A DNA stretch of 34,614 nt from a virus: positions 1-34,614 of the IMG/VR virus record IMGVR_UViG_3300042691_032841; one strand, 5' to 3'. Numbering within the stretch: position 1 is the first letter of the stretch; each line of letters starts with the position of its first letter. Below the pieces are notes generated by a model that worked only from the letters and a program-made list of their open reading frames with translations, searched no databases and was not told the origin of the DNA. Both the position numbers and the translations under genes were made by a program. This document shows, in pieces, positions 1,685 through 34,197 of this stretch.

Positions 1685-3052
1685 ATGAAAGATTTTAACA
1701 TTGCAAAGTATTTAAAAGAAAACAATCTTGGTCCACACGCTATCCTTGGTGCATACGTAGATTTGCATGGTTTGAAAGAAGAAACTCAATTAAATGAAGC
1801 TTCATTAGAACTTGATTGGGATTATGGACTAAAATATCTAAAAGCTCAGTGTAAAAAACACAATTTAAATTTTAAGGTAATAGAAGAAAACCTTGCAGAA
1901 GGCCTTTATGTAAAAATTTCAGGCAAAAAAAATGATATAATTGAATTTTTAAAAGATGGATACGTTCAAGATGAAGAGGATTTAGAATTTTATTCAGATA
2001 GTCTTAAAGAACAGCCAGAAATGGAATTGGATACAGAAATTCCGTATGAAGGTCCAGAACATAAGCTGGATGGCTTTGGTGATGAATTTGTGCAAGACAG
2101 TCCTGTAGAAGAAAAAGCAGGTAAAGATGATAGAGATAGCTTAATGACAAAACTATTTGCTATTCAAAAAAGATTTGGATGGAAAAAGGTAAGTCAGGAT
2201 ACAGAACCATTTCAAAATATAAGAATAAGCAATGGGATGAAAAGAGTTCGTAATAACTACGTTGAAGATGGTAGTATTACTGTTGATATTGATAGTACAG
2301 TAAGTAGAGCTGCTTTTACTGAGATCAAAAATTTACTACAAACAAAATTTCCTGATTGGAAAATAGATCCTAGCAGTGTTAAAAAAGATTACGATCCTGA
2401 TACTGATTCTAAGAACGTATTATTCTTTGATATAGTAAAAAATAAATCTGTTAAAGAAGATAGTCCTGTAGAAGAAATAGACAGTATGGATTATGATGAT
2501 TCTGTAAATCCATTTCCTTCATTAATGCCAGATGAGCAAGGTAAGTTTGATCGCATGATGGGACTTATTGATCAAAATATTGAACCACGTCTTGGCCAAA
2601 TAAAATCTATTATTGATGGTTCTAGGGAACAAGGATATGCAGATAGAACAATATTTACCGTTCTTGCAAGACATCCGCTTGTTAGAAATAGTATAGAAGC
2701 CCTTGTTGATGATGGTTTTGAGTTTCAAGATATCATTGATTTCTTTGCTACTGACTTTTCTCAAAATGAAGAAATTGCAGGATACAAAGCAGGTGTTCAA
2801 ATGGAAGGCGCAGAAGAATATATTGTTGATTTCGGTACTAATACAATGACTTATACATTAGATAGAGCTAATAGTGTTCTTAGAGGATTAAAACCTGGAA
2901 TTGTTCCTGGTGCTGATCGTGAAGAAGACATCATACCTGTTACAATAAGCCCTGAAGGATATTTATCAACTACTGATAGAAGTGTTAAAGATATATCTCC
3001 TAAATCTAATAAAAATCCTTTTTCTGATCCTAGTTACAGAAATATAGACTAA
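1685..3052 (+). CDS. Acidic multidomain protein, putative capsid-packaged protein (455 aa)
   Basis: Begins MKDFNIAKYLKENNLG, an N-terminal motif shared with the 116-aa protein at 33847 (FNLKKYLVENNL). Two (L/I)-x-E sites follow, LKE at 30-32 and LNE at 36-38 before Ala, as expected for a T4-type prohead-protease site. The body looks modular: a small alpha/beta domain (about 40-110), an acidic linker with DSPVEE, a second domain (about 150-255), another acidic linker repeating DSPVEE (about 258-290), a helical domain (about 285-370) and a C-terminal beta-rich part. The repeated linker suggests a beads-on-a-string protein. It has its own candidate late promoter. Packaging inside the head is inferred from the N-terminus only; the enzymatic role, if any, is unknown. 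Confidence 0.7.
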   Translation: MKDFNIAKYLKENNLGPHAILGAYVDLHGLKEETQLNEASLELDWDYGLKYLKAQCKKHNLNFKVIEENLAEGLYVKISGKKNDIIEFLKDGYVQDEEDLEFYSDSLKEQPEMELDTEIPYEGPEHKLDGFGDEFVQDSPVEEKAGKDDRDSLMTKLFAIQKRFGWKKVSQDTEPFQNIRISNGMKRVRNNYVEDGSITVDIDSTVSRAAFTEIKNLLQTKFPDWKIDPSSVKKDYDPDTDSKNVLFFDIVKNKSVKEDSPVEEIDSMDYDDSVNPFPSLMPDEQGKFDRMMGLIDQNIEPRLGQIKSIIDGSREQGYADRTIFTVLARHPLVRNSIEALVDDGFEFQDIIDFFATDFSQNEEIAGYKAGVQMEGAEEYIVDFGTNTMTYTLDRANSVLRGLKPGIVPGADREEDIIPVTISPEGYLSTTDRSVKDISPKSNKNPFSDPSYRNID

Positions 3053-22206: not shown

Positions 22207-22527
22207 TTACAACTTTATTGTGTATTCTATTAATTGATCTATAGAGTAAAAAGGTTTACCTTTTATTTTATCATTTAAAGATAACGTAAACCCTACATCA
22301 TCATAGTTATTTGTTATATAAATTACTTCTTCTATAAAGTTATTATTTATCATTTTTAATACTATAGGATAGTTAGAACATCCTATTAAATCTTCAATAG
22401 AATCACAAAGTATAGTATCCGATTTACAAACTTCGTAGTCATAATGAATATAGTTTTTACCTAATTCTTCTTTTAACTTTTGACATCTTTGGCAACCTTC
22501 TAATAATAACAATTTAATCTTGTTCAT
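22207..22527 (-). CDS. Glutaredoxin/thioredoxin-fold protein (106 aa)
   Basis: N-terminal KIKLLLLEGCQRCQKLKEEL contains a redox C-x-x-C (CQRC, residues 12-15) after the first strand of a thioredoxin fold, and NYPIVLK (about 54-60) supplies the cis-proline before the next strand. The size is that of a glutaredoxin or NrdH-type protein. Phage glutaredoxins usually provide electrons to ribonucleotide reductase. Several additional Cys residues (CKSD, LCDS, IGCS) are unusual for the family. Its start overlaps the preceding 55-aa gene by 14 nt. Confidence 0.75.
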   Translation of the reverse strand: MNKIKLLLLEGCQRCQKLKEELGKNYIHYDYEVCKSDTILCDSIEDLIGCSNYPIVLKMINNNFIEEVIYITNNYDDVGFTLSLNDKIKGKPFYSIDQLIEYTIKL

Positions 22528-23032: not shown

Positions 23033-23962
23033 ATGGATAAAGAATTACTCGTATTAGGATTATTAGAAACAGTTCTTGGTAAAGGAAAAGGATCTAAAAC
23101 TACTATGGATTATGCATTCTACTGCCCAGTTTGTAAGCATCATAATCCTAAGTTAATAGTGAATATTAAGTCTGGACAATATAATTGTTGGACTTGCCAC
23201 CCTGCTACTAAAGGTAAAACACCAGTATCACTATTAAAAAAAGTAGATGCTCCTACTGAAAAGATTATCGAAATGAAAAATTACTTTCAAGGAGATAATA
23301 CTAAGATTGATAACACAAAACCAAATAAAGTAACCTTACCAGAAGAATTCATTTCATTATCCAATCCAGATAAATCTCTTGAGTGCAGACATGCTTTAAC
23401 TTATTTAAAGAAAAGAAATATTTCTATTCAAGATATACAAAAGTACAATATTGGGTATTGTAAAACAGGAAGATATAGAAATAGGATAATAGTACCATCT
23501 TATGATAAAGATGGAAATGTAAATTATTTTATAGCTAGATCATTTGAACCTGATCCTGCTAGAAAGTATGACGCTCCTAGTTGTAATAAAACAGAACTTA
23601 TTGGACTAGAGTACTTTGTTAATTGGTCTGTTCCTGTTATATTATGCGAGGGTATTTTTGATGCCATTGCAATTAAGCGTAATGCTATTCCCCTATTCGG
23701 TAAAACTATTCCTCAGTCACTCATGATGAAATTAGTAGAATCTGAAGTAAAAACAGTATATTTGGCATTAGACAAAGACGCACTTAAAGAAGCGTTAGAT
23801 TATTCACAAAATCTTCTTAATTTAGGTAAAGAAGTTTATTTAATAGAATTAGAAGGTAAAGATCCTTCTGACCTTGGTTTTAATAATATGACCAAGTTAT
23901 TACATACTGCGAAGCCACTGTCTTTTGGAGACTTGCTTCTCAAAAAAATACAACTAATATGA
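23033..23962 (+). CDS. DNA primase, gp61/DnaG-like (309 aa)
   Basis: A zinc finger at residues 31-55 (C31-x2-C34 in YCPVCKHHN and C52-x2-C55 in NCWTCH) is followed by a linker and a TOPRIM domain: VILCEGIFDAIAI (202-214, catalytic E206) and VYLALDKDA (242-250, D247 and D249), then EGKDPSDLG. This is the layout of primases that make RNA primers for lagging-strand synthesis and work with the replicative helicase (gp41 in T4). The length is close to T4 gp61 (about 340 aa). It begins the right plus-strand operon and overlaps the nuclease gene by ATGA. It has no packaging-type N-terminus. Confidence 0.88.
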   Translation: MDKELLVLGLLETVLGKGKGSKTTMDYAFYCPVCKHHNPKLIVNIKSGQYNCWTCHPATKGKTPVSLLKKVDAPTEKIIEMKNYFQGDNTKIDNTKPNKVTLPEEFISLSNPDKSLECRHALTYLKKRNISIQDIQKYNIGYCKTGRYRNRIIVPSYDKDGNVNYFIARSFEPDPARKYDAPSCNKTELIGLEYFVNWSVPVILCEGIFDAIAIKRNAIPLFGKTIPQSLMMKLVESEVKTVYLALDKDALKEALDYSQNLLNLGKEVYLIELEGKDPSDLGFNNMTKLLHTAKPLSFGDLLLKKIQLI

Positions 23963-24753
23963 TCGAACAAAACAAGAATGTCTATAGAGACAAGTTCTTA
24001 AAAAGAATCGTTGAAACCGATCCTGAACTTAGACAAATTACTTTACATGATGCTAGATATTATCAAAGATCGCCTGGGGTCTTTTATCCGTCTGTTACCA
24101 CAATTCTTGGTTACTTTCCAAAAGGTGCTTTTTTCGAAACCTGGATTAAAGACATGGGTCATAATGCTGATATTGTTATGCGTCGCGCTGGTGATGAGGG
24201 AACTCAAGTACACAACGCCGTAGAAAAGTTCTTAAAAGGTGAAGAGATTAGGTGGATAGAACCAGATGGAAAGGTTAATTATCATACTCACGTATGGAAA
24301 ATGATTCTAGGTTTTACAGATTTCTGGACGACTTATAAGCCCACTCTTTTATTGTCAGAAGAATTCATGTTTAGTGATACTTACAAGTATTCAGGAACCC
24401 TAGATCTATTGGTAGATATCAATGGAGAGAAGTGGCTTCTAGATATTAAAACCTCAAACTCAGTTCATGAAAGCTACTATCTACAAATGTCAGCCTACAC
24501 TAAAGCTTATGAAGAAAGATATCTCCAAAAAGTGGATCGTAACGGTATCATATGGCTCAAATCTTCAAAGAGAGGTCCAGACAAGGCAGGCAAAAAAATG
24601 CAAGGTGCAGGTTGGGAAATAATTGAAGGAAAGAAGACTGTTGATGAATACTTCAGTATGTTTTTGCATACTTACGAGACTTACAAGATTATGCATCCTG
24701 AATCTGAAATTGAATTACTTACTCTTCCAAATACTGTTAAACTAATAGATTAA
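23959..24753 (+). CDS. PD-(D/E)XK nuclease, RecB/Cas4-like (264 aa)
   Basis: The catalytic set is visible: H85 in GTQVHNAVEKFL, E134/E135 in LLLSEEFMF, D149 in SGTLDLLVD, D162-I-K164 in WLLDIKTSN (the D-x-K active site) and Q176 in YYLQMSAY, the QxxxY element of RecB-family nucleases. Such phage enzymes are exonucleases acting in recombination or DNA processing; no Fe-S cluster cysteines are present, so it is not a full Cas4. It is translationally coupled to the primase, implying a replication/recombination role. An overlapping frame at 24011-24223 is a shadow. Confidence 0.85.
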   Translation: MIEQNKNVYRDKFLKRIVETDPELRQITLHDARYYQRSPGVFYPSVTTILGYFPKGAFFETWIKDMGHNADIVMRRAGDEGTQVHNAVEKFLKGEEIRWIEPDGKVNYHTHVWKMILGFTDFWTTYKPTLLLSEEFMFSDTYKYSGTLDLLVDINGEKWLLDIKTSNSVHESYYLQMSAYTKAYEERYLQKVDRNGIIWLKSSKRGPDKAGKKMQGAGWEIIEGKKTVDEYFSMFLHTYETYKIMHPESEIELLTLPNTVKLID

Positions 24754-24767: not shown

Positions 24768-25553
24768 ATGATTAAGCTACTAGACTTATTATTAGAAGTA
24801 AAAGGGGGCAAAAAAGCTATTATAATGGCAGGTGGAGCCGGAGCCGGCAAATCCACTTTTGTTAAACAGATTAGATCTGACTTAAAAAATCAAGGCTGGA
24901 TTGAGCTGAATGCAGACAAGTATGTAGAAGACAAAGATAGTCCTATGTACAATAATCTAGCTAAAGCCTCTATTCAAATTGATAAAAGAGACCTTCCTGA
25001 TACTATACAATCCGGAAATAATTTTTTATATGATACAACTGGAACTAATATAGAAAGAATAACTAATATTAAAGATTCTGGTTATAATATTATGATGGTG
25101 ATGGTGTATACTAACCCTATAGTTAGTTTCCTTCGTAACTTTTCTAGAGAAAGAAAGGTTCCTACTGTTGGAGTATTATCTAGCTGGAATAATGTATATA
25201 AGAACATTGATACGTACAAAAAAATGTTCGGAGATAATTTTTATCTAGTAGAGACAGGAATGTCAAATGATGAACAAAAGATGGTAGCTGAATTTCAAAA
25301 GGCTTATAAATCTAATAAATTAAAAGAATTTTTTGAGCAGCTTTTATCTTCTGGACAATTTAAGTCTACATTTAAAAAAGATCCTACTAAACAAAAATCT
25401 CCTGAAGAAATAGCAAAATCTAAAGCACTTGTTGATAAGCAAATAGACATACTGTCTGATCAGTTTGATACTATAGAAAAACAAGTAGAAGAGTTAAAAG
25501 CTCAAGATATGTCAAGTGTTGCGTCTAAAGTAAAATCATTTATTAAGTCATGA
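24768..25553 (+). CDS. P-loop (zeta/PNK-like) kinase with capsid-targeting-type N-terminus (261 aa)
   Basis: Starts MIKLLDLLLEVKGGKK, the packaging-type peptide with L-L-E at 8-10. A P-loop kinase follows: Walker A GGAGAGKST (22-30), an Asp in LNADKY (about 47-52), YDTTGTN (88-94), and an Arg-rich lid RNFSRERKVPTVGV (about 123-136). The order resembles zeta-toxin and polynucleotide/nucleoside-kinase-type enzymes that phosphorylate a sugar, nucleotide or nucleic-acid end. The ~85-residue C-terminus is a Lys/Glu-rich helix (KQIDILSDQFDTIEKQ). Overlaps the nucleotidyltransferase by ATGA. If packaged, this kinase would be delivered with the DNA. The substrate is unknown. Confidence 0.8.
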   Translation: MIKLLDLLLEVKGGKKAIIMAGGAGAGKSTFVKQIRSDLKNQGWIELNADKYVEDKDSPMYNNLAKASIQIDKRDLPDTIQSGNNFLYDTTGTNIERITNIKDSGYNIMMVMVYTNPIVSFLRNFSRERKVPTVGVLSSWNNVYKNIDTYKKMFGDNFYLVETGMSNDEQKMVAEFQKAYKSNKLKEFFEQLLSSGQFKSTFKKDPTKQKSPEEIAKSKALVDKQIDILSDQFDTIEKQVEELKAQDMSSVASKVKSFIKS

Positions 25554-26140
25554 TTAACTTCGAACAACTAGGAAGACAGATAGCAGAGGATATATTAAAA
25601 GAAGCATCGCCAGATGTAGGCCCTTGTTTTTACCCTGGTAAATTCAAACCTCCTCATAAAGGACATTTTGAAGCCGCAAAATATTTAGCGTCTCTAAATT
25701 ATATTAACAAAGTATATGTTGTTATATCTAATGTTACTAAGTACGGTATAACTCCTGAAGATTCTCTTTATATCTGGCAAGAATATCTTAAAGCAGAACC
25801 CAATCCTAAAATAGAGGTAACAATATCTAAAGAGTCCACACCAATAAAAGACATCTTTGCTTTTATGGCAGAAAACCCTGATGTTGACCCAGTCTATGTT
25901 GCGTCAGGAGAAGAAGAACAAACAGAATTAGGATACTTTGATTCTATACAAAAAAGATTTCCTAATAAAGTAAGACCTGAAATTATACCGGCACAATTTG
26001 GTAGAATATCTGCAACTCAAATGAGAGCCACAATTAAAGCTGGTAACTTTGAAGAATTTGCTAAATTTATTCCAGACTCGGCATATAATAAAGGAGTGGC
26101 TAAAGATGTTTTTGGAAGATTATTGAAAATAATGAAATGA
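25550..26140 (+). CDS. NMNAT/cytidylyltransferase-like nucleotidyltransferase with packaging-type N-terminus (196 aa)
   Basis: Residues 25-45 contain YPGKFKPPHKGHFEAAKYLA, the (H/T)xGH nucleotide-binding motif (HKGH, 36-39) of the nucleotidyltransferase alpha/beta-phosphodiesterase superfamily. ISATQMRATI (153-162) is the ISxTxxR motif that binds the triphosphate. This pair is typical of NadM/NadR/RibL-like enzymes that form dinucleotides such as NAD. The N-terminus (MINFEQLGRQIAEDILKEAS) ends in L-K-E before Ala-Ser, as a prohead-protease site would. It is coupled by 4-nt overlaps to the kinase upstream and the peptidase-HAD fusion downstream. NMN as substrate is plausible, not shown. Confidence 0.8.
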   Translation: MINFEQLGRQIAEDILKEASPDVGPCFYPGKFKPPHKGHFEAAKYLASLNYINKVYVVISNVTKYGITPEDSLYIWQEYLKAEPNPKIEVTISKESTPIKDIFAFMAENPDVDPVYVASGEEEQTELGYFDSIQKRFPNKVRPEIIPAQFGRISATQMRATIKAGNFEEFAKFIPDSAYNKGVAKDVFGRLLKIMK

Positions 26141-27030
26141 TACCAGAAAAAAGACAAGAAATAATAGAGGATTTTATACAGTTTGCAAAAAATAAACTTT
26201 ATATAAATCAGCTTCCTACAATTAGGTTTTTAAATGATCGTGAATGGGCAACAGAAAGAAGAAGTTTTGGTGAGTATAATCCAAACGAAAACCATTTAGA
26301 TGTTTATATAGGAAATAGAAACTTAGCAGATATACTAAGAACTCTATGTCATGAATTAGTTCACCATAGACAAAATGAGCTTGGTAAATTATATAATAGT
26401 GCTGGTAAGACAGGATCTAATATAGAGAATGAAGCTAATGCTTTAGCAGGTATAATGATGAGAGACTATGGTAAAACTAATGATCTTATTTATGAATCTT
26501 TTCTTCCTACTCTTAAACAAATTTATGAAGTAGAACAATCCGGAGGTATTCAGATTTATTGTGATATGGATGGAGTATTGTGTGATTTTGATGAAAGATT
26601 TGAACATTTTTATGAGATGACTCCAATTCAATATAGAGAGAAATATGGACCAACCCCTTTTAAAAATGCTGTAGATCAAGCCGGCATTGACTTTTGGGCT
26701 AAAATGAAATGGATGCCAGGAGGTCAAGAACTATGGTCAATTATAGGTAAGTATAATCCATACATCCTAACTAGTCCTAGTAAATTTAATCATGCTGTAG
26801 AAGGTAAAAAGTTATGGATAAAGTCAAATCTTGATCCTCAACCAAAAGGAATAATATTTGGACAGACAGGGCAAAAACATTTAGAAATGAAAACAGATCC
26901 TAAAAGATCTATCCTAATAGATGACTATTGGCCAAACCTAGCTCCTTGGAAAGATTTAGAAGGTATAGCAATAATGCACAAAGATATTAATAAGACAAAA
27001 AATATATTAAGTAAATTCAGAATAAAATAG
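26137..27030 (+). CDS. Fusion of zinc metallopeptidase-like and HAD phosphatase domains (297 aa)
   Basis: Residues 1-120: a zincin-like domain with LCHELVHHRQNELG (HELVHH at 72-77) and a possible third ligand in NIENEANALAG (about 95-105). Residues 138-297: a HAD hydrolase like 5'(3')-deoxyribonucleotidases, with the nucleophile motif IYCDMDGVLCDFD (D143, D145), ILTSPSK (motif II Thr/Ser), and ILIDDYWPN (motif IV D262-D263). The short linker FLPTLKQIYEVEQSGG (122-137) resembles the MIKLIDILKEVEQ start of the 181-aa protein at 28711 and includes I-Y-E. It thus looks like an internal packaging/cleavage peptide. The gene overlaps its upstream neighbour by ATGA. The domain calls are good; physiological substrates are unknown. 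Confidence 0.8.
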   Translation: MIPEKRQEIIEDFIQFAKNKLYINQLPTIRFLNDREWATERRSFGEYNPNENHLDVYIGNRNLADILRTLCHELVHHRQNELGKLYNSAGKTGSNIENEANALAGIMMRDYGKTNDLIYESFLPTLKQIYEVEQSGGIQIYCDMDGVLCDFDERFEHFYEMTPIQYREKYGPTPFKNAVDQAGIDFWAKMKWMPGGQELWSIIGKYNPYILTSPSKFNHAVEGKKLWIKSNLDPQPKGIIFGQTGQKHLEMKTDPKRSILIDDYWPNLAPWKDLEGIAIMHKDINKTKNILSKFRIK

Positions 27031-27032
27031 TT

Positions 27033-27611
27033 ATGTTACCAAAAGATTCTACGCTAAAAAAACAATTTAAACAAAGAGATGTTCAAAGGATGAGAAATAT
27101 TATTACTGGTAAAACTGGTGATAGAACTCAAGTGCTTGGAGGTTGGGAAAGTAAAATAGAAGAACATAAAGAAGGTGATATTTGGGAAGAAGATGGAAAA
27201 AAGTGGACTATAAAGAATGGCATCAAACAGTCTATAACCAAGCTAGATAAATTCAAACATCTTGTATCTCTACCTCTTACTTGTCCTAGTTGTAAGAAGC
27301 CTATGAAGGCTGATGAATTAAATAAAAAGATGTACTCGGTACATAAAGTGTGTTTGAACTGTGTTATTGATATGGAAGCTAAACTAAAGCTAGAAGGTAA
27401 ATATAAGCAGTATGAAAAAAATATTCTTAATATGAATAAGAATGCTAGTCTTGAAGAGTTTGAAATGGCTTTGGATTCATGGCTTGAGGAAAAAGATACC
27501 TTCGTAACTGAGCAAGGGGATATTGAAAGTTGGCAAGGCGGAGATAAGACTCAGATATATCAAGAACTCAAAAAGAAGATAGAAGAGTTTAGGAAAACAG
27601 ATATTTATTAG
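27033..27611 (+). CDS. Zinc-ribbon protein of unknown function (192 aa)
   Basis: Contains a four-Cys zinc ribbon: C-P-S-C in LTCPSCKKPM (about 93-102) and C-L-N-C in HKVCLNCVID (about 113-122). N-terminal basic helix (STLKKQFKQRDVQRMRNI) and an EGDIWEEDGKKWTIKNG beta region precede it, and acidic helices follow. The EGDIW-x-E-x-G-K-x-W pattern recurs in T4-like marine phage proteins, but I know no function. Unlike most neighbours it lacks the M-x-K-L-x-D-I-L start. It lies 2 nt after the peptidase-HAD gene. A nucleic-acid or protein-binding role is likely. Confidence 0.65.
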   Translation: MLPKDSTLKKQFKQRDVQRMRNIITGKTGDRTQVLGGWESKIEEHKEGDIWEEDGKKWTIKNGIKQSITKLDKFKHLVSLPLTCPSCKKPMKADELNKKMYSVHKVCLNCVIDMEAKLKLEGKYKQYEKNILNMNKNASLEEFEMALDSWLEEKDTFVTEQGDIESWQGGDKTQIYQELKKKIEEFRKTDIY

Positions 27612-27613
27612 TA
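27601..27613 (+). promoter_or_regulatory. Candidate late promoter (ATATTTATTAGTA)
   Basis: An exact copy of the 13-nt element at 1658-1670. It overlaps the last codons and stop of the zinc-ribbon gene and lies 20 nt before the next ATG. Confidence 0.45.
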
Positions 27614-27633
27614 AATTCTAAAAGAATATTGTA

Positions 27634-28710
27634 ATGCATAATATATCAGAAAAAGCTGCATCTAAACAACAACAGAAATTAATGGGTATAGTTCACGCCC
27701 TTCAAAAAGGAGATATGAAACCTTCACAAGCATCAGGAAAAGCAAAAGAAATGGCTAAATCAATGAAAAAAGGAGATGTAAAAGATTTTGCATCAACTAA
27801 ACATAAAGGACTTCCTAAAAAAGTAAAGAAGGAAGACTATGATCCTACCAAGATGTATGTGGTTCTTAAACCAATGGACAATCTAGATGCAGCAGGTTTG
27901 ATTAAAGAATTAAATCCACTAGAAGGCCTTCAGCCTCTTAATATTATGCAAGATGATGTTCATAGTGTAGTAACTGACGAATCAGAAGCACAGAGAATTG
28001 CTGCAGAAGTATATGGAGCATACGTTAAAGAAGTTCAAGCTCTTGAAGAAAAGAAAGGAAAGGTAGGTGATAAGTTGAAAAAAACTATTGACCATCTTGA
28101 GAAGAAACGTAAAGAGCATGTTGATATGGCTAAAGAAGATCCTAAAAATGCTTCTCAACATAAAGAACATATTGCTAAACTTGCATCTCAAATCGACGAT
28201 CTTATGAGTAAGATGGAAAAGATTGAGAAGAGCAAGAAAAATGTTGAAAAAGTAGAAGACGAAAAAAGTGATAAAAAAAAAGATAAATTAAAAGAAGAAT
28301 TTAATCCTACTGATAAAGTAATTTTAGACATCCCTCTTTTTATTAGACTTTTAGAATATGCTAGAGAAGATGCCAAATCAGACATGGATCTTCATAATGT
28401 AGCGCAAAAAGCCATTGAATTATCCCAATCAGGTATGTCTCTTTCTATGAAAGATTACGAATCTTTAATAGGAGGGCAAGAGCAATTAGCAGAATCTGAT
28501 AATGTAGTAGATAGTATCCCAGAAATTCAAAGATATCTTAAAGATCTTGTAATTAAAATTCCTACAGTAAAAGGTATAGATACAAATGAGGTTAAAGGAA
28601 TTGTAGAATTAATAAATTCAATACTTGCTAAATTAGGAAAAGGATCAGTTGGACCTGCTATAAATGCAACTAACAAAGTTTTTAATCAAAGAACTCAAGG
28701 ATTAAAATAA
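27634..28710 (+). CDS. Lys-rich multidomain protein with DUF3008-like N-terminus (358 aa)
   Basis: Residues about 8-68 contain AASKQQQKLMGIVHALQKGD, AKEMAKSMKKGDVKDFAST and KHKGLPKK, which from memory match small basic proteins of the DUF3008 type. A short beta domain follows (KMYVVLKPMDNL, about 75-86), then a very charged coiled coil (about 140-225), an L-K-E site in KDKLKEEFNP (about 221-230), and a C-terminal helical domain with IPLFIRLLEYAREDAKSDMD and IELSQSGMSLSMKDYESL. The first part could bind nucleic acid. It has a candidate late promoter, and it is followed with no gap by the 181-aa gene. A DNA-binding virion protein is possible. Confidence 0.65.
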   Translation: MHNISEKAASKQQQKLMGIVHALQKGDMKPSQASGKAKEMAKSMKKGDVKDFASTKHKGLPKKVKKEDYDPTKMYVVLKPMDNLDAAGLIKELNPLEGLQPLNIMQDDVHSVVTDESEAQRIAAEVYGAYVKEVQALEEKKGKVGDKLKKTIDHLEKKRKEHVDMAKEDPKNASQHKEHIAKLASQIDDLMSKMEKIEKSKKNVEKVEDEKSDKKKDKLKEEFNPTDKVILDIPLFIRLLEYAREDAKSDMDLHNVAQKAIELSQSGMSLSMKDYESLIGGQEQLAESDNVVDSIPEIQRYLKDLVIKIPTVKGIDTNEVKGIVELINSILAKLGKGSVGPAINATNKVFNQRTQGLK

Positions 28711-29256
28711 GTGATTAAATTAATAGACATATTAAAAGAAGTTGAGCAAGATCAAATAGATATATCTGCATTAAATAATCTAGATGATGAAATAGAAAAA
28801 GCTTTAGAAACTGCTCCTAAAAATGAAATAATAGGTACTATTTCTATAGTATTAGCTTTACCTGGAATCATAAATGCCATTACAAAAATTATAGAGGCGA
28901 TAGCAAAAAAAGCTGGTATTCAATTAAAAAAATCTGATCCGAAATGGTATCAAGTTATAGGAAAAGTAACTGATAAGATTGATGACTACGTAGATACACC
29001 ATTTAGAATTATGCTAAAACCTTTTATTCAAGATCAAAGTAAAAGAGATAAAGTAGCAAAGATTTTTAAGGCGGTAGTTCTAACTATGATGGCAATTTTT
29101 GGATCGGTAGATGTTAAACAAATTGAATCTACAACATCACTAATTAAAAATTTAGCTCCTGATATATCAAGTGAATTAATACAATCTATTGCAGAAAAAA
29201 ATGCAAGTAAAATTGGTACTATATTAAGAGACGTAATTAAACCATTGTTTGCTTAA
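28711..29256 (+). CDS. Putative packaged protein with membrane-active helices (181 aa, GTG start)
   Basis: Begins at GTG, directly after the preceding stop: the encoded start M-I-K-L-I-D-I-L-K-E (L-K-E at 8-10) matches the other packaging-type N-termini exactly, which fixes this start. The body is helical with a long apolar segment EIIGTISIVLALPGIINAIT (about 39-58) and a second one AVVLTMMAIFGSVD (about 115-128), separated by basic amphipathic stretches. These could insert into a membrane. In a packaged protein this might mean a pore or DNA-entry role after ejection. This is speculative, and no family is recognised. Confidence 0.65.
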   Translation: MIKLIDILKEVEQDQIDISALNNLDDEIEKALETAPKNEIIGTISIVLALPGIINAITKIIEAIAKKAGIQLKKSDPKWYQVIGKVTDKIDDYVDTPFRIMLKPFIQDQSKRDKVAKIFKAVVLTMMAIFGSVDVKQIESTTSLIKNLAPDISSELIQSIAEKNASKIGTILRDVIKPLFA

Positions 29257-29268
29257 AATTTTATAATA

Positions 29269-29598
29269 ATGGATACAATTCAAGAATTAAACGAAGGAGA
29301 ATTTTGCCCTCAATGTTTGGCTCAATATATAAGAGAACACATTAACTCTTTACAAGAAGCGGAGTATCAAGGACGTAAAGTACCTCTAGGAAAACCTATG
29401 AGAGGCGATATTAAGAAGTTTAAAGTATATGTAAAGAATAATAAGGGTAATATTGTTAAGGTTAACTTTGGAGACCCTAACATGAAGATTAAAAAGTCAA
29501 ATCCTAAAAGAAGAAAGAGTTTTAGAGCAAGACACCATTGTGACACTAATCCAGGACCAAGATGGAAAGCAAGATATTGGTCATGCAGAAAATGGTAA
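29269..29598 (+). CDS. Conserved basic Cys-containing phage protein (109 aa)
   Basis: N-terminal MDTIQELNEGEFCPQCLAQY carries a C-x-x-C and is followed by an L-Q-E site before Ala at 28-31 (NSLQEAEYQG). The remainder is a highly characteristic basic domain: KFKVYVKNNKGNIVKVNFGD, then MKIKKSNPKRRKSFRARHHC and KARYWSCRKW. I recognise this as a family widespread in T4-like phages, generally without known function; its Arg/Lys and conserved Cys/His suggest a zinc- or nucleic-acid-binding fold. If cut after E30, the mature part would be this domain alone. Confidence 0.7.
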   Translation: MDTIQELNEGEFCPQCLAQYIREHINSLQEAEYQGRKVPLGKPMRGDIKKFKVYVKNNKGNIVKVNFGDPNMKIKKSNPKRRKSFRARHHCDTNPGPRWKARYWSCRKW

Positions 29599-29601
29599 AC
29601 T

Positions 29602-29841
29602 ATGATTAAACTTAAAGATATATTAAACGAAGCAGCAAAACCAGGTCCAATAGAGTATCCAAAAGACCATAAACCAGGTATGAAAGTTACTAAGGGTGGT
29701 TCAATGTGTGCTAATTGTGAATACTGGATTAAAGAAGGTAATATATGCAATAATCAATATTGGCTTAAGTGGAGAAAAGGCAATGCCAAAATACCTGCCA
29801 ATGCTGATGAGTATTGCTGTAATTGGTGGCATGCAAACTAA
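29602..29841 (+). CDS. Cys-rich small protein with packaging-type N-terminus (79 aa)
   Basis: Starts MIKLKDILNEAAKPGPIEYP, with L-N-E at 8-10 before Ala-Ala, an ideal T4-type cleavage site. The mature part would be a ~69-residue domain with GSMCANCEYW (C-x2-C, about 34-43), a third Cys in GNICNNQYW and a C-C pair in ADEYCCNWW: five cysteines. The spacing suggests a zinc or iron-sulphur site; the pattern faintly recalls high-potential iron-sulphur proteins, but this is not proven. Gene spacing is 3 nt from the basic protein before it. Confidence 0.65.
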   Translation: MIKLKDILNEAAKPGPIEYPKDHKPGMKVTKGGSMCANCEYWIKEGNICNNQYWLKWRKGNAKIPANADEYCCNWWHAN

Positions 29842-29842
29842 G

Positions 29843-29856
29843 ATATTTATACTTAT
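29843..29856 (+). promoter_or_regulatory. Candidate late promoter (ATATTTATACTTAT)
   Basis: ATATTTATACTTAT fills the 15-nt gap between the Cys-rich gene and the 105-aa gene and touches the ATG. The ATATTTATA core agrees with the motif; the AGTA part is changed to CTTA. Confidence 0.35.
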
Positions 29857-30174
29857 ATGACAAAGCTTCTAGATATTTTAAAGGAAATTAAAGAGTCTTT
29901 CATAGACTTTGCAGAGACTAGAATGAAGGGAGCTGAGAAGATTGCAAATAACGCAAAGGAAAAAGGAGGTCTTTCTATGCTTACTTATAATCACTTTGTA
30001 GTTAAACTTCCTTATTATAAGAAGGCTAAACAAGGTGAATTTAATATAGAAGAGGCTAAGAAAGAATATAATAGGACATATAAGGAGATATCCCTGAATA
30101 TGACCCAAACAGAGTTTCAGAGAGAGGTTGGTAGACTAGAAGTATTAGGTGAACTAATAATTAGAAATAAATGA
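29857..30174 (+). CDS. Small helical protein with packaging-type N-terminus (105 aa)
   Basis: Starts MTKLLDILKEIKESF with L-K-E at 8-10. The body is helical with KEKGGLSMLTYNHFVVKLPY (about 44-63) as the only hydrophobic part and then KEYNRTYKEISLNMTQTEFQ. It overlaps the next gene by ATGA. The domain has no recognised function; small proteins with the L-P-Y-Y centre occur in related phages. Packaging in the head is inferred from the N-terminus. Confidence 0.6.
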   Translation: MTKLLDILKEIKESFIDFAETRMKGAEKIANNAKEKGGLSMLTYNHFVVKLPYYKKAKQGEFNIEEAKKEYNRTYKEISLNMTQTEFQREVGRLEVLGELIIRNK

Positions 30175-30704
30175 TTAAGCTTAAAGATATATTATTAGAA
30201 ATGGCCAAAACAGATATTCACTATCAGAATATCTTACAGTCTTTTAATAATGGAGATGCAGAAATTAGAGATCGAATATCTAGAGCGGTATCAAAAACCC
30301 CCTACACTTTAGAAAAAGATTTAGAATATCTAGGATATGATGATATTACCGATATAGAAAAAGAATTAGATTTAAATCCTCTTGAAGAAGCTTGTTGGAA
30401 AGGATATAGAAAAGATCCAAAAAATCCAATGAAAAAAGGAAAAAAAGGGAATATGGTTCCTAATTGTGTTAGAGTAAGTGAAGCAAAAAAGAAAGGAAAA
30501 GTTAATCCTGCGTATCTTACTAAAGATGCTGCAGCAATGAAGAAAGAGATTGATAGAGTTAAAAAGTTAAAGTCTGATGATCCTTCTGCTTATGGAAAGT
30601 GGGAAGCTGATTATGCTGATAAGGCTAAAACTAAGAAATATAAGACTAAGAAGAGTGCGGCAACTTCTGCTTACGAAAAAAGATTTGGTAAAAAAGAAAA
30701 ATAA
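30171..30704 (+). CDS. Modular basic protein with packaging-type N-terminus (177 aa)
   Basis: Starts MIKLKDILLEMAK (L-L-E at 8-10). After a helical part comes LNPLEEACWKGYRKDPKNPM, KKGKKGNMVPNCVRVSEAKK (about 79-118): a Cys-framed module, A-C-W-K-G-Y ... V-P-N-C-V, that I associate with many T4-like marine phage proteins, flanked by L-E-E before Ala and by V-S-E before Ala. The C-terminal domain (AYGKWEADYADKAK, KKSAATSAYEKRFGKK) is a basic helical unit also common in such phages. Several units in one short protein, separated by possible cleavage sites, suggest a small polyprotein. The Lys-rich parts could bind packaged DNA. Confidence 0.65.
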   Translation: MIKLKDILLEMAKTDIHYQNILQSFNNGDAEIRDRISRAVSKTPYTLEKDLEYLGYDDITDIEKELDLNPLEEACWKGYRKDPKNPMKKGKKGNMVPNCVRVSEAKKKGKVNPAYLTKDAAAMKKEIDRVKKLKSDDPSAYGKWEADYADKAKTKKYKTKKSAATSAYEKRFGKKEK

Positions 30705-30979
30705 TGAAGCTACAAGAACTATTACAACAATTAGTTGAAGAAAGACTTAAGTTTCACCACTCAAATGCACCAGATGCAAAAGGTAGATTTAAAGAATTGC
30801 CAGCAGAAAAGTTAGCTAATTGGTTGATTAGAACAAGAAAAGGTAATATGAGTAAAATAACAGGCTCATTAAATCAACAAGCTAATTTTAATCGTAAAGA
30901 TGATCCTGCTTACGCAAGGAAGATGGATAGGACTAGAGAGATAGTTAAAAAGAAACTAGATAAAAAGAAAAAGAAATGA
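30704..30979 (+). CDS. Small very basic protein with packaging-type N-terminus (91 aa)
   Basis: Starts MKLQELLQQLVEERLK: a short variant of the tag with L-V-E at 10-12. It then has FHHSNAPDAKGRFKELPAEK and GNMSKITGSLNQQANFNRKD, ending in a run of Lys (KKLDKKKKK). The Arg/Lys content and small size fit a DNA-binding internal protein. Its start shares a base with the previous stop, and its end overlaps the next gene by ATGA. Function unknown. Confidence 0.65.
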   Translation: MKLQELLQQLVEERLKFHHSNAPDAKGRFKELPAEKLANWLIRTRKGNMSKITGSLNQQANFNRKDDPAYARKMDRTREIVKKKLDKKKKK

Positions 30980-31263
30980 TTAATAAATTAGATATATTAA
31001 AGAAAATACTTATTCTTGAGTATGATGCTGAAGTAGAAAAAGCCTTAGCAAATAAAGCAAAGTCTACCGGTATATCTAAAACTATACTCAAAAGTGTATA
31101 TGCTAAAGGTTTAGCAGCTTGGAAAACAGGTCACCGTCCTGGAGTTGGTCAACACCAATGGGCAATGGGAAGAGTGAATTCATTTGTAACAGGTAAAGGT
31201 GGAGCAAGAAAAGCAGATAAGAGTTTATGGAAAAAGGCAAGTAAATCTAAAAAGAAAAAATAA
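30976..31263 (+). CDS. Small basic protein with W-K-T-G-H-R-P-G motif and packaging-type N-terminus (95 aa)
   Basis: Starts MINKLDILKKILILEYDAEV, with I-L-E at 13-15. The conserved core is helical: KAKSTGISKTILKSVYAKGL, then AAWKTGHRPGVGQHQWAMGR (about 52-71) and VNSFVTGKGGARKADKSLWK. The A-W-K-T-G-H-R-P-G ... Q-W-x-x-x-R-V-x-S-F signature is one I have seen in marine T4-like phages and some large eukaryotic viruses, without known function. It ends in poly-Lys. If cut at E15, the mature protein is exactly this conserved unit. Confidence 0.68.
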   Translation: MINKLDILKKILILEYDAEVEKALANKAKSTGISKTILKSVYAKGLAAWKTGHRPGVGQHQWAMGRVNSFVTGKGGARKADKSLWKKASKSKKKK

Positions 31264-31264
31264 A

Positions 31265-31915
31265 ATGAATAGTATTTCATTCTTCAAAGCTCTTTTGATG
31301 AAAGAGTTAAACGAAAAAGACGGAGCAGAATTTACAAAAAAGTATAATGATAATCCTAAATTGAAAGGAGGACAAAAAAATCTGCCTGATCAATTACAAG
31401 CTCAAATTGTAAAAAACGAAGGCGAAGATCATGAAGTATCAATGGCGCAAAATAGCCTTAAGTCTATTATAAGTTCAGCAAGCCAATTGATGAATATGTT
31501 AGGTCAAGATGAGAAAGATATCCCAGCTTGGATTCAAGATCATATTACTAATGCAGAGAACTATATTAATCAGGCTTCAAAGAACTATCATGAATATCAT
31601 AATGGTGGAGATAATATGGACGAACTTCCTGTAGGTAATGAAGAAGAGCCTGTAGATGATATGGCACTACAGTCTATGATGGAAGCAGAATTTATTAGCC
31701 TTAAAGATTTTTCTAAAAACTTAGAACTTCACAAAAAAGGAGATATTACTAAATCTCAACTTATTACCTCTTATAATAAGTTAAGTGCAAAAAATCAAGA
31801 TAAAGCTAAAGAACTTGCTAAAGATCTAGATGTATTGCCTAAACCAAAAAAGACTAACGAAACTTCTCTTCAAAGTATAATGGAAAGTGTTGTCAAGCGT
31901 AAAAAAGCAAAATAA
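31265..31915 (+). CDS. Acidic helical protein with packaging-type N-terminus (216 aa)
   Basis: The start is put at 31265 (MNSISFFKALLMKELNEKDG), one base after the preceding stop; an upstream ATG at 31199 would lie inside the preceding gene. L-N-E occurs at 15-17. The middle has EDHEVSMAQNSLKSIISSAS, IPAWIQDHITNAENYINQAS: a helical module (E-V-x-M-A-Q ... P-x-W-x-Q ... I-T-x-A-x-x-Y-I) that I associate with many T4-like marine phage proteins. Two later peptides, ALQSMMEAEF (about 136-145) and SLQSIMESVV near the end, look like duplicated cleavage-type sites (M-M-E, I-M-E), with a helical unit between them. Modular head-packaged protein inferred. Confidence 0.65.
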   Translation: MNSISFFKALLMKELNEKDGAEFTKKYNDNPKLKGGQKNLPDQLQAQIVKNEGEDHEVSMAQNSLKSIISSASQLMNMLGQDEKDIPAWIQDHITNAENYINQASKNYHEYHNGGDNMDELPVGNEEEPVDDMALQSMMEAEFISLKDFSKNLELHKKGDITKSQLITSYNKLSAKNQDKAKELAKDLDVLPKPKKTNETSLQSIMESVVKRKKAK

Positions 31916-31918
31916 TAA

Positions 31919-33520
31919 ATGCCAGTGAGTAACCAAGACATATTAAAAACAATACTCTTACAAGAGTTAGATAGGATGGAACCTGAACAATCAACGTTTG
32001 AGGATGATCCTATGCAGTTCATATTAAAGAAGTATGTAGGACTTAAGAATACTCTTGAGTATCTTATGACTCCTTCATTTGAAGAATATATTACTGGCAT
32101 ATATGTAGTGGCTCCTAAGCCTACAACATTTAAAATTGTTTTACATAATGGACAATTCTTTTTCTTGCAGTTCATGGGTAAAGCCTATGAAGCAACTGTA
32201 GAAGGAAAGAAATACTATTTAATGTCTATTGGTGAGAAAGAAAGGTGCATGGTTGCTATATCAAGACTCCTTAGATTTGGTAACCCATTAAAGACAAAAG
32301 GGCCGGATGGAGCAGAGCAAGGTACTAGAGATTCAGAAGGACCTGCAGAAGAAGCAGGACCAACTCCACCAGCAGAAACATCAGCACCAGAAGCAGAAGG
32401 TGGAGAAGAGTTGACAGAATCTAGGATATTAGAGACAATATTATTAGAACAATCTAAACCAAGTCCTAAAATAAATCAACAAGCATCTGATAAACTAATA
32501 AATCTTAATCCTAATAAGTTTGAAAAACAATCTGATCCATATAGAATAGCAAATAAAGAAAAAGTAAGTGTTGATGAGTTTGTTAAGATAATTAAAAAAG
32601 ATCTTAAAGCTAAAAACATTAAAGTTCACCCTCCTAAATCTGGACCTAATACAAGTAGTAAATTTAGTATGGTAGAATTTGATTCTGAATTTGGACCTGT
32701 TAAATTTATTTTAAGTGGTGGTGCAACTGCTAATTTAGGTAGTAAATTTGAAAAAGATTTAGTAGATAAAATTAAATCATCAGCAGGATTAAATAAAAAT
32801 GAAATACAAGATCCTATAGCTTTAAAAATATTAGACTTTTTAAATATTAATCCAAAACAATTAAAACCTGAAAACGTAATTGCAGCAGGAGAAACTGATA
32901 CAAAAAGACCATTAAATTTTAAAGGTCCACAAAATAGAGGAGAAAAAATATCTGATATAATTATTAATTATAAAAATAAACCTTATTATTTATCTATAAA
33001 AAATGTATCAGGATCTGGGATTTATAATGGTGGAGTTATTCCTGGTATAGTTTTTAATAAGGATAAAAATAAAATAGTTTTTGATAAAGCTGCTTTTGAT
33101 TCAAATGAAAATATTAAAAAAATTTTAGAAATATTTGGCGTTGATCCTAAAAAAATAGTAGCTGGATTAAATAATTATGTTTCCCAAAAAGGACCAGAAA
33201 CAAAATTTGAACAAAGTAATGGTAATATAGAATTAATAAGTAAGCTATTAGGATCAGCTATAGACTATGGATATTATTATATAAGGGAAATACCTGGAGG
33301 AGATGTTAAAATCTATAATATAGACTCTCCTAAAAAGGCAATGCAACTTTTAGGAAATCCTAGTGGAGTTTTTGTAAAATATGCAAATCCATCTACAAAA
33401 ATAACTACTATTAGAGTTCCACTAGAAGGTTCATTACTAGGACTAAAAAGAGCAGATGTTAGTATAAGAAATGCCACTGGAGGAATAGATAAGCCTGTCA
33501 TAAAAATTAATTTATTCTAA
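31919..33520 (+). CDS. Two-module protein with two packaging-type peptides; C-terminal part PD-(D/E)XK-like (533 aa)
   Basis: Residues 5-16 (NQDILKTILLQE) are a packaging-type tag. An alpha/beta domain follows (about 25-125), then a Pro/Ala/Glu linker (about 128-165). A second copy of the tag, RILETILLEQ, sits at 169-178, where an L-L-E cut would release the second module. The last ~350 residues resemble a nuclease-like fold: E278 in GSKFEKDLVDKI, D346 in EKISDIIINYKN and S359-I-K361 in YYLSIKN, the E ... D ... x-x-K order of PD-(D/E)XK enzymes, with Ser in the usual E/Q position. Nuclease identity is tentative. The architecture strongly suggests two packaged proteins joined in one gene. Confidence 0.72.
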   Translation: MPVSNQDILKTILLQELDRMEPEQSTFEDDPMQFILKKYVGLKNTLEYLMTPSFEEYITGIYVVAPKPTTFKIVLHNGQFFFLQFMGKAYEATVEGKKYYLMSIGEKERCMVAISRLLRFGNPLKTKGPDGAEQGTRDSEGPAEEAGPTPPAETSAPEAEGGEELTESRILETILLEQSKPSPKINQQASDKLINLNPNKFEKQSDPYRIANKEKVSVDEFVKIIKKDLKAKNIKVHPPKSGPNTSSKFSMVEFDSEFGPVKFILSGGATANLGSKFEKDLVDKIKSSAGLNKNEIQDPIALKILDFLNINPKQLKPENVIAAGETDTKRPLNFKGPQNRGEKISDIIINYKNKPYYLSIKNVSGSGIYNGGVIPGIVFNKDKNKIVFDKAAFDSNENIKKILEIFGVDPKKIVAGLNNYVSQKGPETKFEQSNGNIELISKLLGSAIDYGYYYIREIPGGDVKIYNIDSPKKAMQLLGNPSGVFVKYANPSTKITTIRVPLEGSLLGLKRADVSIRNATGGIDKPVIKINLF

Positions 33521-33526
33521 AATAAA

Positions 33527-33558
33527 TTTTTTTATTTCAATTATTTTTTGTATATTAG
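33527..33558 (+). promoter_or_regulatory. Host-type promoter before the 81-aa gene
   Basis: Seven T then ATTTCAA, ending TTTTTTGTATATTAG (box 33551-33558). It shares 28 of 32 positions with the minus-strand copy at 22949-22980, including the 24-nt distance from T-run to box. The ATG follows 15 nt after the box, leaving room for a short A/T-rich leader. Confidence 0.6.
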
Positions 33559-33573
33559 CCATAAATTAATTAC

Positions 33574-33819
33574 ATGGCAAAAAAAGATACAATCTATAGA
33601 ACAATAAAGACTATAGAAGGAACAACAATCCACATTTACGAAGACGAAAAAGGGGCTACAAAACCCCATTGTGCCACTGGCCCTGCTATACTTTATGGAA
33701 AAGGACAAAACAAACAAGATGAATACTATTTGTTTGGAGTAAAGTATGATTATGATAGGTGGCTAGAATTATCTAGACCTTTAAGGAAAGCTACTACTAA
33801 AGAAGATTTTGTTGATTGA
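33574..33819 (+). CDS. Small conserved phage protein with G-P-A repeat-like motif (81 aa)
   Basis: Contains HCATGPAILYGKGQNKQDEY and YLFGVKYDYDRWLE (about 32-66), a pattern of H-x-x-x-GPA followed by a Y-Y-x-x-G strand that is widespread in small phage proteins and recalls MORN/YwqK-type antitoxin repeats. Only about one and a half units are present. It has its own host-type promoter, unlike its late neighbours, so it may be made early. Function unknown. Confidence 0.6.
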   Translation: MAKKDTIYRTIKTIEGTTIHIYEDEKGATKPHCATGPAILYGKGQNKQDEYYLFGVKYDYDRWLELSRPLRKATTKEDFVD

Positions 33820-33822
33820 TAA

Positions 33823-33835
33823 ATATTTATAAGTA
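33823..33835 (+). promoter_or_regulatory. Candidate late promoter (ATATTTATAAGTA)
   Basis: ATATTTATAAGTA lies 11 nt before the ATG of the 116-aa gene, in the 27-nt gap after the 81-aa gene. It contains the complete motif. Confidence 0.45.
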
Positions 33836-33846
33836 AATGTACGACT

Positions 33847-34197
33847 ATGTCATTTAACTTAAAAAAATATTTAGTAGAAAATAATCTTACTTTAATCTCT
33901 AGGATTAGAGAAGAGGAAGATACGGAAGTAGAGCCTTCAAAAGATGATCTTAAACAATCTGAAAAAGACTTTAGATCAATAGATAAAAAGAAAAAGGAAT
34001 TAGCAAATCTTCAACAGCAAGTAAAAACAATTCTTGCAAAATATACAGAAAGAGGAGCCGACGGTAATCTTAAACTTAAAGATGTAGCTGGATATAAGAA
34101 TGCTGTTGGAAATATTCCTGATAGAATTAAACTCCTCAAAGCTCAGATAGATAAAGTAGAAAATCCTAAATTAGATTCAGATGAAGAAGACGATTAG
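33847..34197 (+). CDS. Coiled-coil protein with FNxxKYLxENNL-type N-terminus (116 aa)
   Basis: Starts MSFNLKKYLVENNLTLISRI, nearly the same as the 455-aa protein's start (FNIAKYLKENNL) 32 kb away; L-V-E at 9-11 and I-R-E at 20-22 are possible cleavage sites. The rest is an acidic/basic coiled coil (DKKKKELANLQQQVKTILAK, then GNIPDRIKLLKAQIDKVENP) with a short insertion. It has its own candidate late promoter. Probably a head-internal or scaffold-type protein; function unknown. Confidence 0.62.
   Translation: MSFNLKKYLVENNLTLISRIREEEDTEVEPSKDDLKQSEKDFRSIDKKKKELANLQQQVKTILAKYTERGADGNLKLKDVAGYKNAVGNIPDRIKLLKAQIDKVENPKLDSDEEDD

Follow-up and report, generated by a model that had tools for sequence, protein, structure and literature searches.

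A T4-type N-terminal peptide shared by unrelated proteins marks a predicted cargo locus in a clade of T4-like phages

Background

Proteins that phages inject besides their DNA are mostly undescribed outside a few models. The internal proteins (IPs) of T-even phages have diverse bodies behind one capsid-targeting sequence (CTS) (PMC3012670). Mutations in T4 IPIII showed that residues 4 and 7 weigh most for targeting and residues 8 and 10 for processing, with gp21 cleaving after (L/I)-x-E (PMC9026906), and T4 gp24 and the IPs shed propeptides of 10–20 residues (PMC5694885). In phiKZ and SPN3US a Glu-specific gp21-like protease also removes propeptides from packaged proteins, but its motif is S/A-x-E or A-x-E, the propeptides are mostly long, and they lack a shared 10-residue tag. 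Here we describe a locus in which unrelated proteins share a T4-like N-terminal peptide (the tag). It lies at 24.7–34.2 kb of the IMG/VR record IMGVR_UViG_3300042691_032841, a T4-like myovirus genome fragment whose complete 34,614 bases we call the window.

The nearest isolate is immuto (Immutovirus), a Flavobacterium phage; the window phage is a phage of water, and its host is probably Flavobacteria-like. The minus strand from 3.8 to 22.7 kb holds mainly a baseplate/tail module. From 23.0 kb the plus strand carries, in order, primase and exonuclease (23033–24753; PHROG 4.2e-44 and 1.8e-42), which form the left border of the locus, and then the tagged-gene cluster; all locus genes named below are on the plus strand. 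A further comparison is offered by cyanophages, among them the T4-like S-CREM2, whose virion proteins have been identified by mass spectrometry (MS; PMC10665884 Table 3).

Results

A strict tag is clustered between primase and terminase

Five unrelated window proteins encoded between 24768 and 30704 begin M-x-K-L-x-D-(I/L)-L-x-E; they stand where the original prediction had placed them, with Glu at position 10 in each. Scored by a rule derived from T4 (hydrophobic residues at 4, 7 and 8 plus Glu at 10), 5 of the 16 genes at 24.7–34.2 kb conform, compared with 0.12 expected from shuffled N-termini (maximum 2 in 1000 shuffles). Outside the locus the rule fits one of 32 window genes, a thioredoxin/glutaredoxin-like gene (22207–22527) that was rejected as a false positive: its start, MNKIKLLLLE, is the first strand of the thioredoxin-like fold. 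Starts of the KLIREE/KKSEL type, such as that of 16037, were not scored as tags because they are present on tail-module proteins too.

Genes were called on the window, its relatives and immuto and grouped by the body after residue 22 into 585 families. Counts from one relative (G001) were left out because the gene caller, trained mostly on AT-rich genomes, undercalls it. The pattern M.KL.[DNES][IL][LI].E is found in 18 of the 585 families, and in 11 of the 538 that have no window member; the expected number of tagged families is 0.055 under a shuffled null (mean) and 0.115 under a position-specific null. Sixteen of the 18 tagged families are located between primase/exonuclease and terminase, and none of the 22 tail families carries the strict tag. 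A less strict core that T4 also has, phi-x-x-phi-(L/I)-x-E (phi, hydrophobic), is 10.6-fold enriched in the primase-to-terminase stretch, where 30 of 106 families have it in most members. In G012, a near-complete relative of 162 kb for which 192 genes were called, all four MIKL tags fall inside the locus, which continues on the same strand into terminase, portal, gp21, scaffold and capsid genes. The codons of the tag differ from gene to gene, and its conservation is therefore at the protein level. Primase and exonuclease, cited in the original prediction as an untagged internal contrast, indeed carry no tag.

Conserved positions coincide with those mapped in T4

Among 18 distinct N-termini of the tagged kinase family, positions 4, 8 and 10 are invariant and position 7 is L or I, while 5, 6, 9 and 11–16 vary. 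The unrelated family of the helical-bundle protein tagged MTKLLDILKE, then I (29857–30174; 14 aligned sequences), likewise keeps L4, L8 and E10, with a length-variable linker directly after E10. Conservation in window families thus coincides with the positions mapped by mutation in T4 (4, 7, 8 and 10), which bears out the T4 parallel drawn in the original prediction. AlphaFold2 placed the 29857 tag in a helix (residues 4–10, pLDDT about 59) apart from a body mostly above pLDDT 95, for which a PDB fold search gave no match. The rule also fits T4 IPII, IPIII, gp24 (MAKINELLRE) and Alt (MELITELFDE). The locus thus resembles the T4 system of CTS-bearing IPI, IPII, IPIII and Alt with gp21 in having a 10-residue N-terminal peptide, hydrophobic 4, 7 and 8, Glu10 and an (L/I)-x-E site.

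gp21 and the head module lie downstream in relatives

The original prediction proposed a search for a gp21-type protease. None is encoded in the window fragment, but 18 of 25 records of relatives carry the gp21-family (S77) protease PF03420 (6 of 11 and 12 of 14 in two sets, the remainder being mostly short fragments), and its gene lies directly downstream of the cargo locus. One carrier, G004, has a primase 99% identical to that of the window, and the window phage itself presumably encodes gp21. The head module follows in the order terminase, gp20 portal, gp21, gp22 scaffold and gp23 capsid in G012, G024 and immuto. Immuto shares with the window clade the sequence of primase, cargo locus, terminase, portal, annotated gp21, scaffold and capsid, and its tag classes match; unlike in the window, some bodies are fused or replaced, and its cargo carries either a hypothetical annotation or an unrelated name.

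Tags are exchanged, and one class matches the scaffold C-terminus

A second tag class (class C), FxLKK(F/Y)LxEN, occurs in nine families. In the window it is found at 33847–34197 (MSFNLKKYLVE, then NNL), where it has the form FxLxKYLVEN and is kept in 41 of 45 relatives, and at 1685–3052 on the plus strand (MKDFNIAKYLKE, then N; also given as MKDFNIAKYLKEN), outside the range of the original prediction, where 7 of 9 family members have it. A third class, (K)RMQ(K/Q)LAGI(I/L)xE, was found in 13 families by the first pattern used; the RMQKLAGI tag is absent from the window. The gene at 31265–31915, which has MNSISFFKALLMKELNE in the window, belongs to a body family that swaps tags: some relatives have MIKLKEILTE and others MENSLSYYRNILLQEIEE, each followed by VSY at an identical junction. 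This swap and the 18 body families corroborate the claim of one tag on otherwise unrelated proteins. Two relatives' records (G020 and G024; L415–L431) each encode roughly a dozen tagged proteins or more, spread over several loci, with MIKL tags alongside RMQKLAGI tags in a single genome.

The C-terminus of the gp22-like scaffold is of the (S/N)RWQxLAGIK type in nearly all 17 clade scaffolds, and the pattern that it shares with the third tag class is present in 17 of 17. We scanned IMG/VR for KRMQ(K/Q)LAGI, counting exact matches only, so that all counts are lower bounds. At least 90 distinct open reading frames (ORFs) contain the peptide. In at least 65 ORFs, from at least 54 unrelated body families, it lies within 30 residues of the first Met, and among these N-terminal matches listed at least 46 have Glu three residues after the Ile. 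At least 17 ORFs have it at the extreme C-terminus, and 15 of the 17 listed are scaffold genes alongside a capsid gene, mostly with gp21 too. Predicted cargo of this class thus joins the terminal peptide of the scaffold to a protease site. Since a tag class reproduces the scaffold C-terminal peptide, docking probably imitates a scaffold contact, and the sequence match makes it likely that tag and scaffold C-terminus bind one common prohead partner. No exact scaffold-type source was found for the main MIKL class; the capsid protein start, MANLVQSLLTE followed by S, is similar to it. A 248-residue ORF with no adjoining capsid gene (L370) ends in DEFKRMQKLAGI and may be cargo with a C-terminal docking peptide.

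Tagged enzymes are detected in purified cyanophage virions

The T4-derived rule fits six annotated S-CREM2 proteins, and MS detected five of them in virions: SAM hydrolase gp6 (MKDFDSFLEE), gp13, APH-like kinase gp14 (MKRFDAFLTE), gp136 and cytidylyltransferase gp154 (MKNFSSFLTE). This is an enrichment over the 52 of 219 proteins detected (p = 0.003; 0.0003 without tail proteins). A stricter pattern (five of five) was devised after viewing the sequences and was set aside, for which reason the T4-derived rule (five of six) is the fair test.

In enzyme kinds and in the logic of a tag ending at position 10, the virion enzymes of S-CREM2 and S-SCSM1 (NMNAT/cytidylyltransferase, SAM hydrolase, APH-like kinase) resemble the window clade. 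They were found in virions by published MS, and they differ from the window clade in tag flavour (MKxFxxFLxE rather than MIKL); a targeting peptide goes unmentioned in the available text of the cyanophage papers. The NMNAT/cytidylyltransferase class, to which the window protein of 25550 belongs, is reported there from virions of S-CREM2, S-SCSM1 and S-CBWM1. NMNAT-like proteins of S-CREM2 and other cyanophages have MKxFxxF(L/F)xE-type tags; the homologue in the jumbo phage RaK2 is untagged and starts directly at the domain. A limited search for literature naming capsid-targeting sequences in cyanophages surfaced only a T4 review.

Two further observations concern these phages and a distant T4-like one. 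The S-CREM2 protein gp12 (L273:7704-10313), annotated as Cas9 and detected in virions by MS, has RFASFMAE followed by A at about residues 18–26, tag-like after a longer start. In Methylophilales phage Melnitz-1 (L280), an NMNAT with a tag-like MKKFSEIIE lies near a 5'-nucleotidase-like gene, a pairing as in the window. The reading of two other tagged ORFs (L158, L151) as ADP-ribosyltransferase-like was dropped: YHAT/YHAS was seen by eye, but Pfam gave no match and PHROG only E of about 0.005.

Genes of the locus

The first locus gene (24768–25553) encodes a P-loop kinase tagged MIKLLDLLLE, then V, with a match to PF06414 (E=2.8e-10) from residue 15, directly after the tag. The match, which does not indicate a substrate, suggests a zeta-toxin/chloramphenicol-phosphotransferase-like enzyme. 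Next comes the NMNAT/cytidylyltransferase-like protein (25550–26140; PHROG cytidyltransferase 3.5e-6), with an N-terminal extension ending IAEDILKE, then AS. The gene at 26137–27030 encodes a fusion of a metalloprotease-like part (HELVHH) and a 5'-nucleotidase (NT5C; PHROG 4.3e-22) that has no clear tag; the N-terminus of its immuto homologue is MKKVMGNLADLLLE, then ES. In relatives the fusion is split or single-domain, with the first part only in G003 and G006 and a tagged nucleotidase only in immuto. The gene at 27033–27611 is conserved in immuto and Mel-JY01, and that at 27634–28710 contains DUF3008 (PF11450, 3.1e-9). The DUF3008 start of the latter (SKQQQKLMGIVHAL) is similar to the scaffold-type peptide QKLAGI, which may be convergence.

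The protein tagged MIKLIDILKE, then V (28711–29256), has a GTG start codon. Two Cys-rich proteins follow, one with a weak pattern match only (29269–29598; PHROG 7595, 2.2e-10) and one of 79 residues with the strict tag MIKLKDILNE, then A (29602–29841). Beyond the helical-bundle gene, a Lys-rich protein has the strict tag MIKLKDILLE, then M (30171–30704); 11 of the 33 members of its family are tagged, and several others are truncated or have later called starts.

The remaining genes carry (L/I)-x-E variants. The protein of 30704–30979 has a possible tag, MKLQELLQQLVEE, with a weak (L/I)xE only. A DUF5824 protein (30976–31263; PF19141, 3e-17 from residue 26) has DILKKILILE, then Y, a site non-significant alone. 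The 533-residue protein of 31919–33520 (PHROG 8438, 3.7e-13) has DILKTILLQE, then L, and its (I/L)LxE-type site is conserved in homologues (LILNE followed by VERMEP, for example). A near copy, RILETILLEQ, lies about 160 residues into this protein and may be another cleavage site, one that separates two domains. A bare (L/I)-x-E at residues 8–22 was rejected as a test because about 20–25% of shuffled sequences have it, as do most primase/exonuclease proteins; the variants at 25550, 30704, 30976, 31265 and 31919 are therefore individually non-significant. The variant sites listed in the original prediction thus do not stand singly, but most are backed by conservation in relatives. Its estimate of about ten tagged proteins is reasonable: the five strict tags and 33847 stand alone, and the other four or five are reached via homologues.

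Discussion

We consider it very probable that the tags are T4-type capsid-targeting sequences in a system enlarged in this clade, with cargo cut by a gp21-type protease and delivered with the DNA. The gp21 of relatives, the conserved positions 4, 7, 8 and 10 and the S-CREM2 virion data support this reading, which the original prediction had proposed. For the window phage, packaging of its tagged proteins is a strongly supported prediction; cleavage at Glu10 would be expected, as would, by analogy with T4, injection.

During head assembly, the amphipathic N-terminal peptide would dock the cargo onto the prohead scaffold core. Within the prohead, where it is active, the gp21-type protease would then cleave behind (L/I)-x-E, which in the main class means behind Glu10. 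The mature protein freed there would remain with the DNA and be delivered into the next host. The enlarged system would comprise a gene cluster just before the head module (terminase, portal, gp21, scaffold, capsid), in which a small number of interchangeable tags precede many unrelated bodies, among them a kinase, an NMNAT-like protein and small proteins rich in Cys or Lys.

Several observations weigh against targeting and delivery. The 34.6-kb window lacks both gp21 and scaffold genes. Two locus genes, 27033 and 27634, are untagged, the looser pattern also appears on 16037 in the tail module and on the thioredoxin-like 22207, and the (L/I)xE variants are weak taken alone. S-CREM2 is a distant relative with another tag flavour, its gp175 fits the rule yet was undetected in virions, and in the available text the MS authors note that virion enzymes could be co-purifying contaminants, leaving cargo or contaminant undecided. 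Our literature search found no virion proteomics for immuto, Mel-JY01 or the clade of this phage.

The tagged proteins might instead be morphogenetic core proteins like T4 gp67 and gp68, which shape the head or condense DNA and are not delivered effectors. Several are small and Lys-rich (30704, 30976), a homologue of 28711 sits between the gp21 and scaffold genes in G009, and head proteins too have (L/I)LxE N-termini. The bodies, however, differ strongly among close relatives and include enzymes, unlike essential core parts, and where T4 has variable bodies behind a tag, these are injected defence proteins; we regard a core role as improbable. The adjoining primase and exonuclease genes could suggest that the common N-terminal helix docks the proteins onto another phage structure (replisome, membrane or late transcription complex) and that (L/I)xE is incidental; the negative search for virion proteomics in the clade is compatible with this idea. 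Yet neither neighbour is tagged, conservation falls on the residues that serve targeting and processing in T4, the scaffold C-terminus recurs as one of the tag classes, and the S-CREM2 virion data point to the capsid, all of which makes such docking very unlikely. That the peptide is a functionless by-product of recent gene-start duplication, or of translation-start constraints in AT-rich genes, is hardly credible. Short tags rich in Lys, Leu and Ile in an AT-rich genome would fit it, but it is already contradicted by nulls of about 0.1 families compared with 18 observed; tag codons that differ between genes, four positions held across divergent homologues while neighbours vary, and tail genes of the same genomes without the tag all speak against it as well.

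Capsid targeting of the tagged proteins would make the system an expanded form of the known T4 CTS mechanism. As in the T4 internal proteins, unrelated bodies share one tag and a gp21-type protease is present, here in relatives. Unlike in T4, where the genes are scattered, the tagged genes of the clade are clustered beside the head genes; tagged bodies are more numerous than in T4, reaching about a dozen in a genome and including metabolic enzymes, and the tags fall into three or more interchangeable classes, of which one copies the C-terminus of the scaffold. This scaffold-mimicking class appears to be new. Within the literature searched, the large number of tagged proteins in the clade and their clustering, the tagged metabolic enzymes matching cyanophage virion data, the tag exchange and the scaffold match are apparently new.

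A broader proposal, for and against which we give equal weight, is that this large group of aquatic T4-like phages loads cargo by scaffold mimicry: an N-terminal copy of the peptide by which the scaffold docks (in one clade an exact KRMQKLAGI) plus a gp21 site would let some 10–20 residues make any protein cargo, and the injected set of uncultured phages would be readable from N-termini. The match between cargo tag and scaffold C-terminus offers a concrete, testable docking mechanism where the targeting partner has so far been poorly defined, and scaffold-type tags would be a source of portable tags to load proteins into phage heads.

Unrelated proteins with a common tag suggest that the phage takes a set of enzymes along with its DNA and probably injects them too. 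If the tags do target the capsid, the packaged proteins of many uncultured phages could be listed from sequence, and the list would supply candidates for counter-defence and host takeover. Such targeting would further help to decide between cargo and contaminant for the enzymes that recur in cyanophage virion proteomes.

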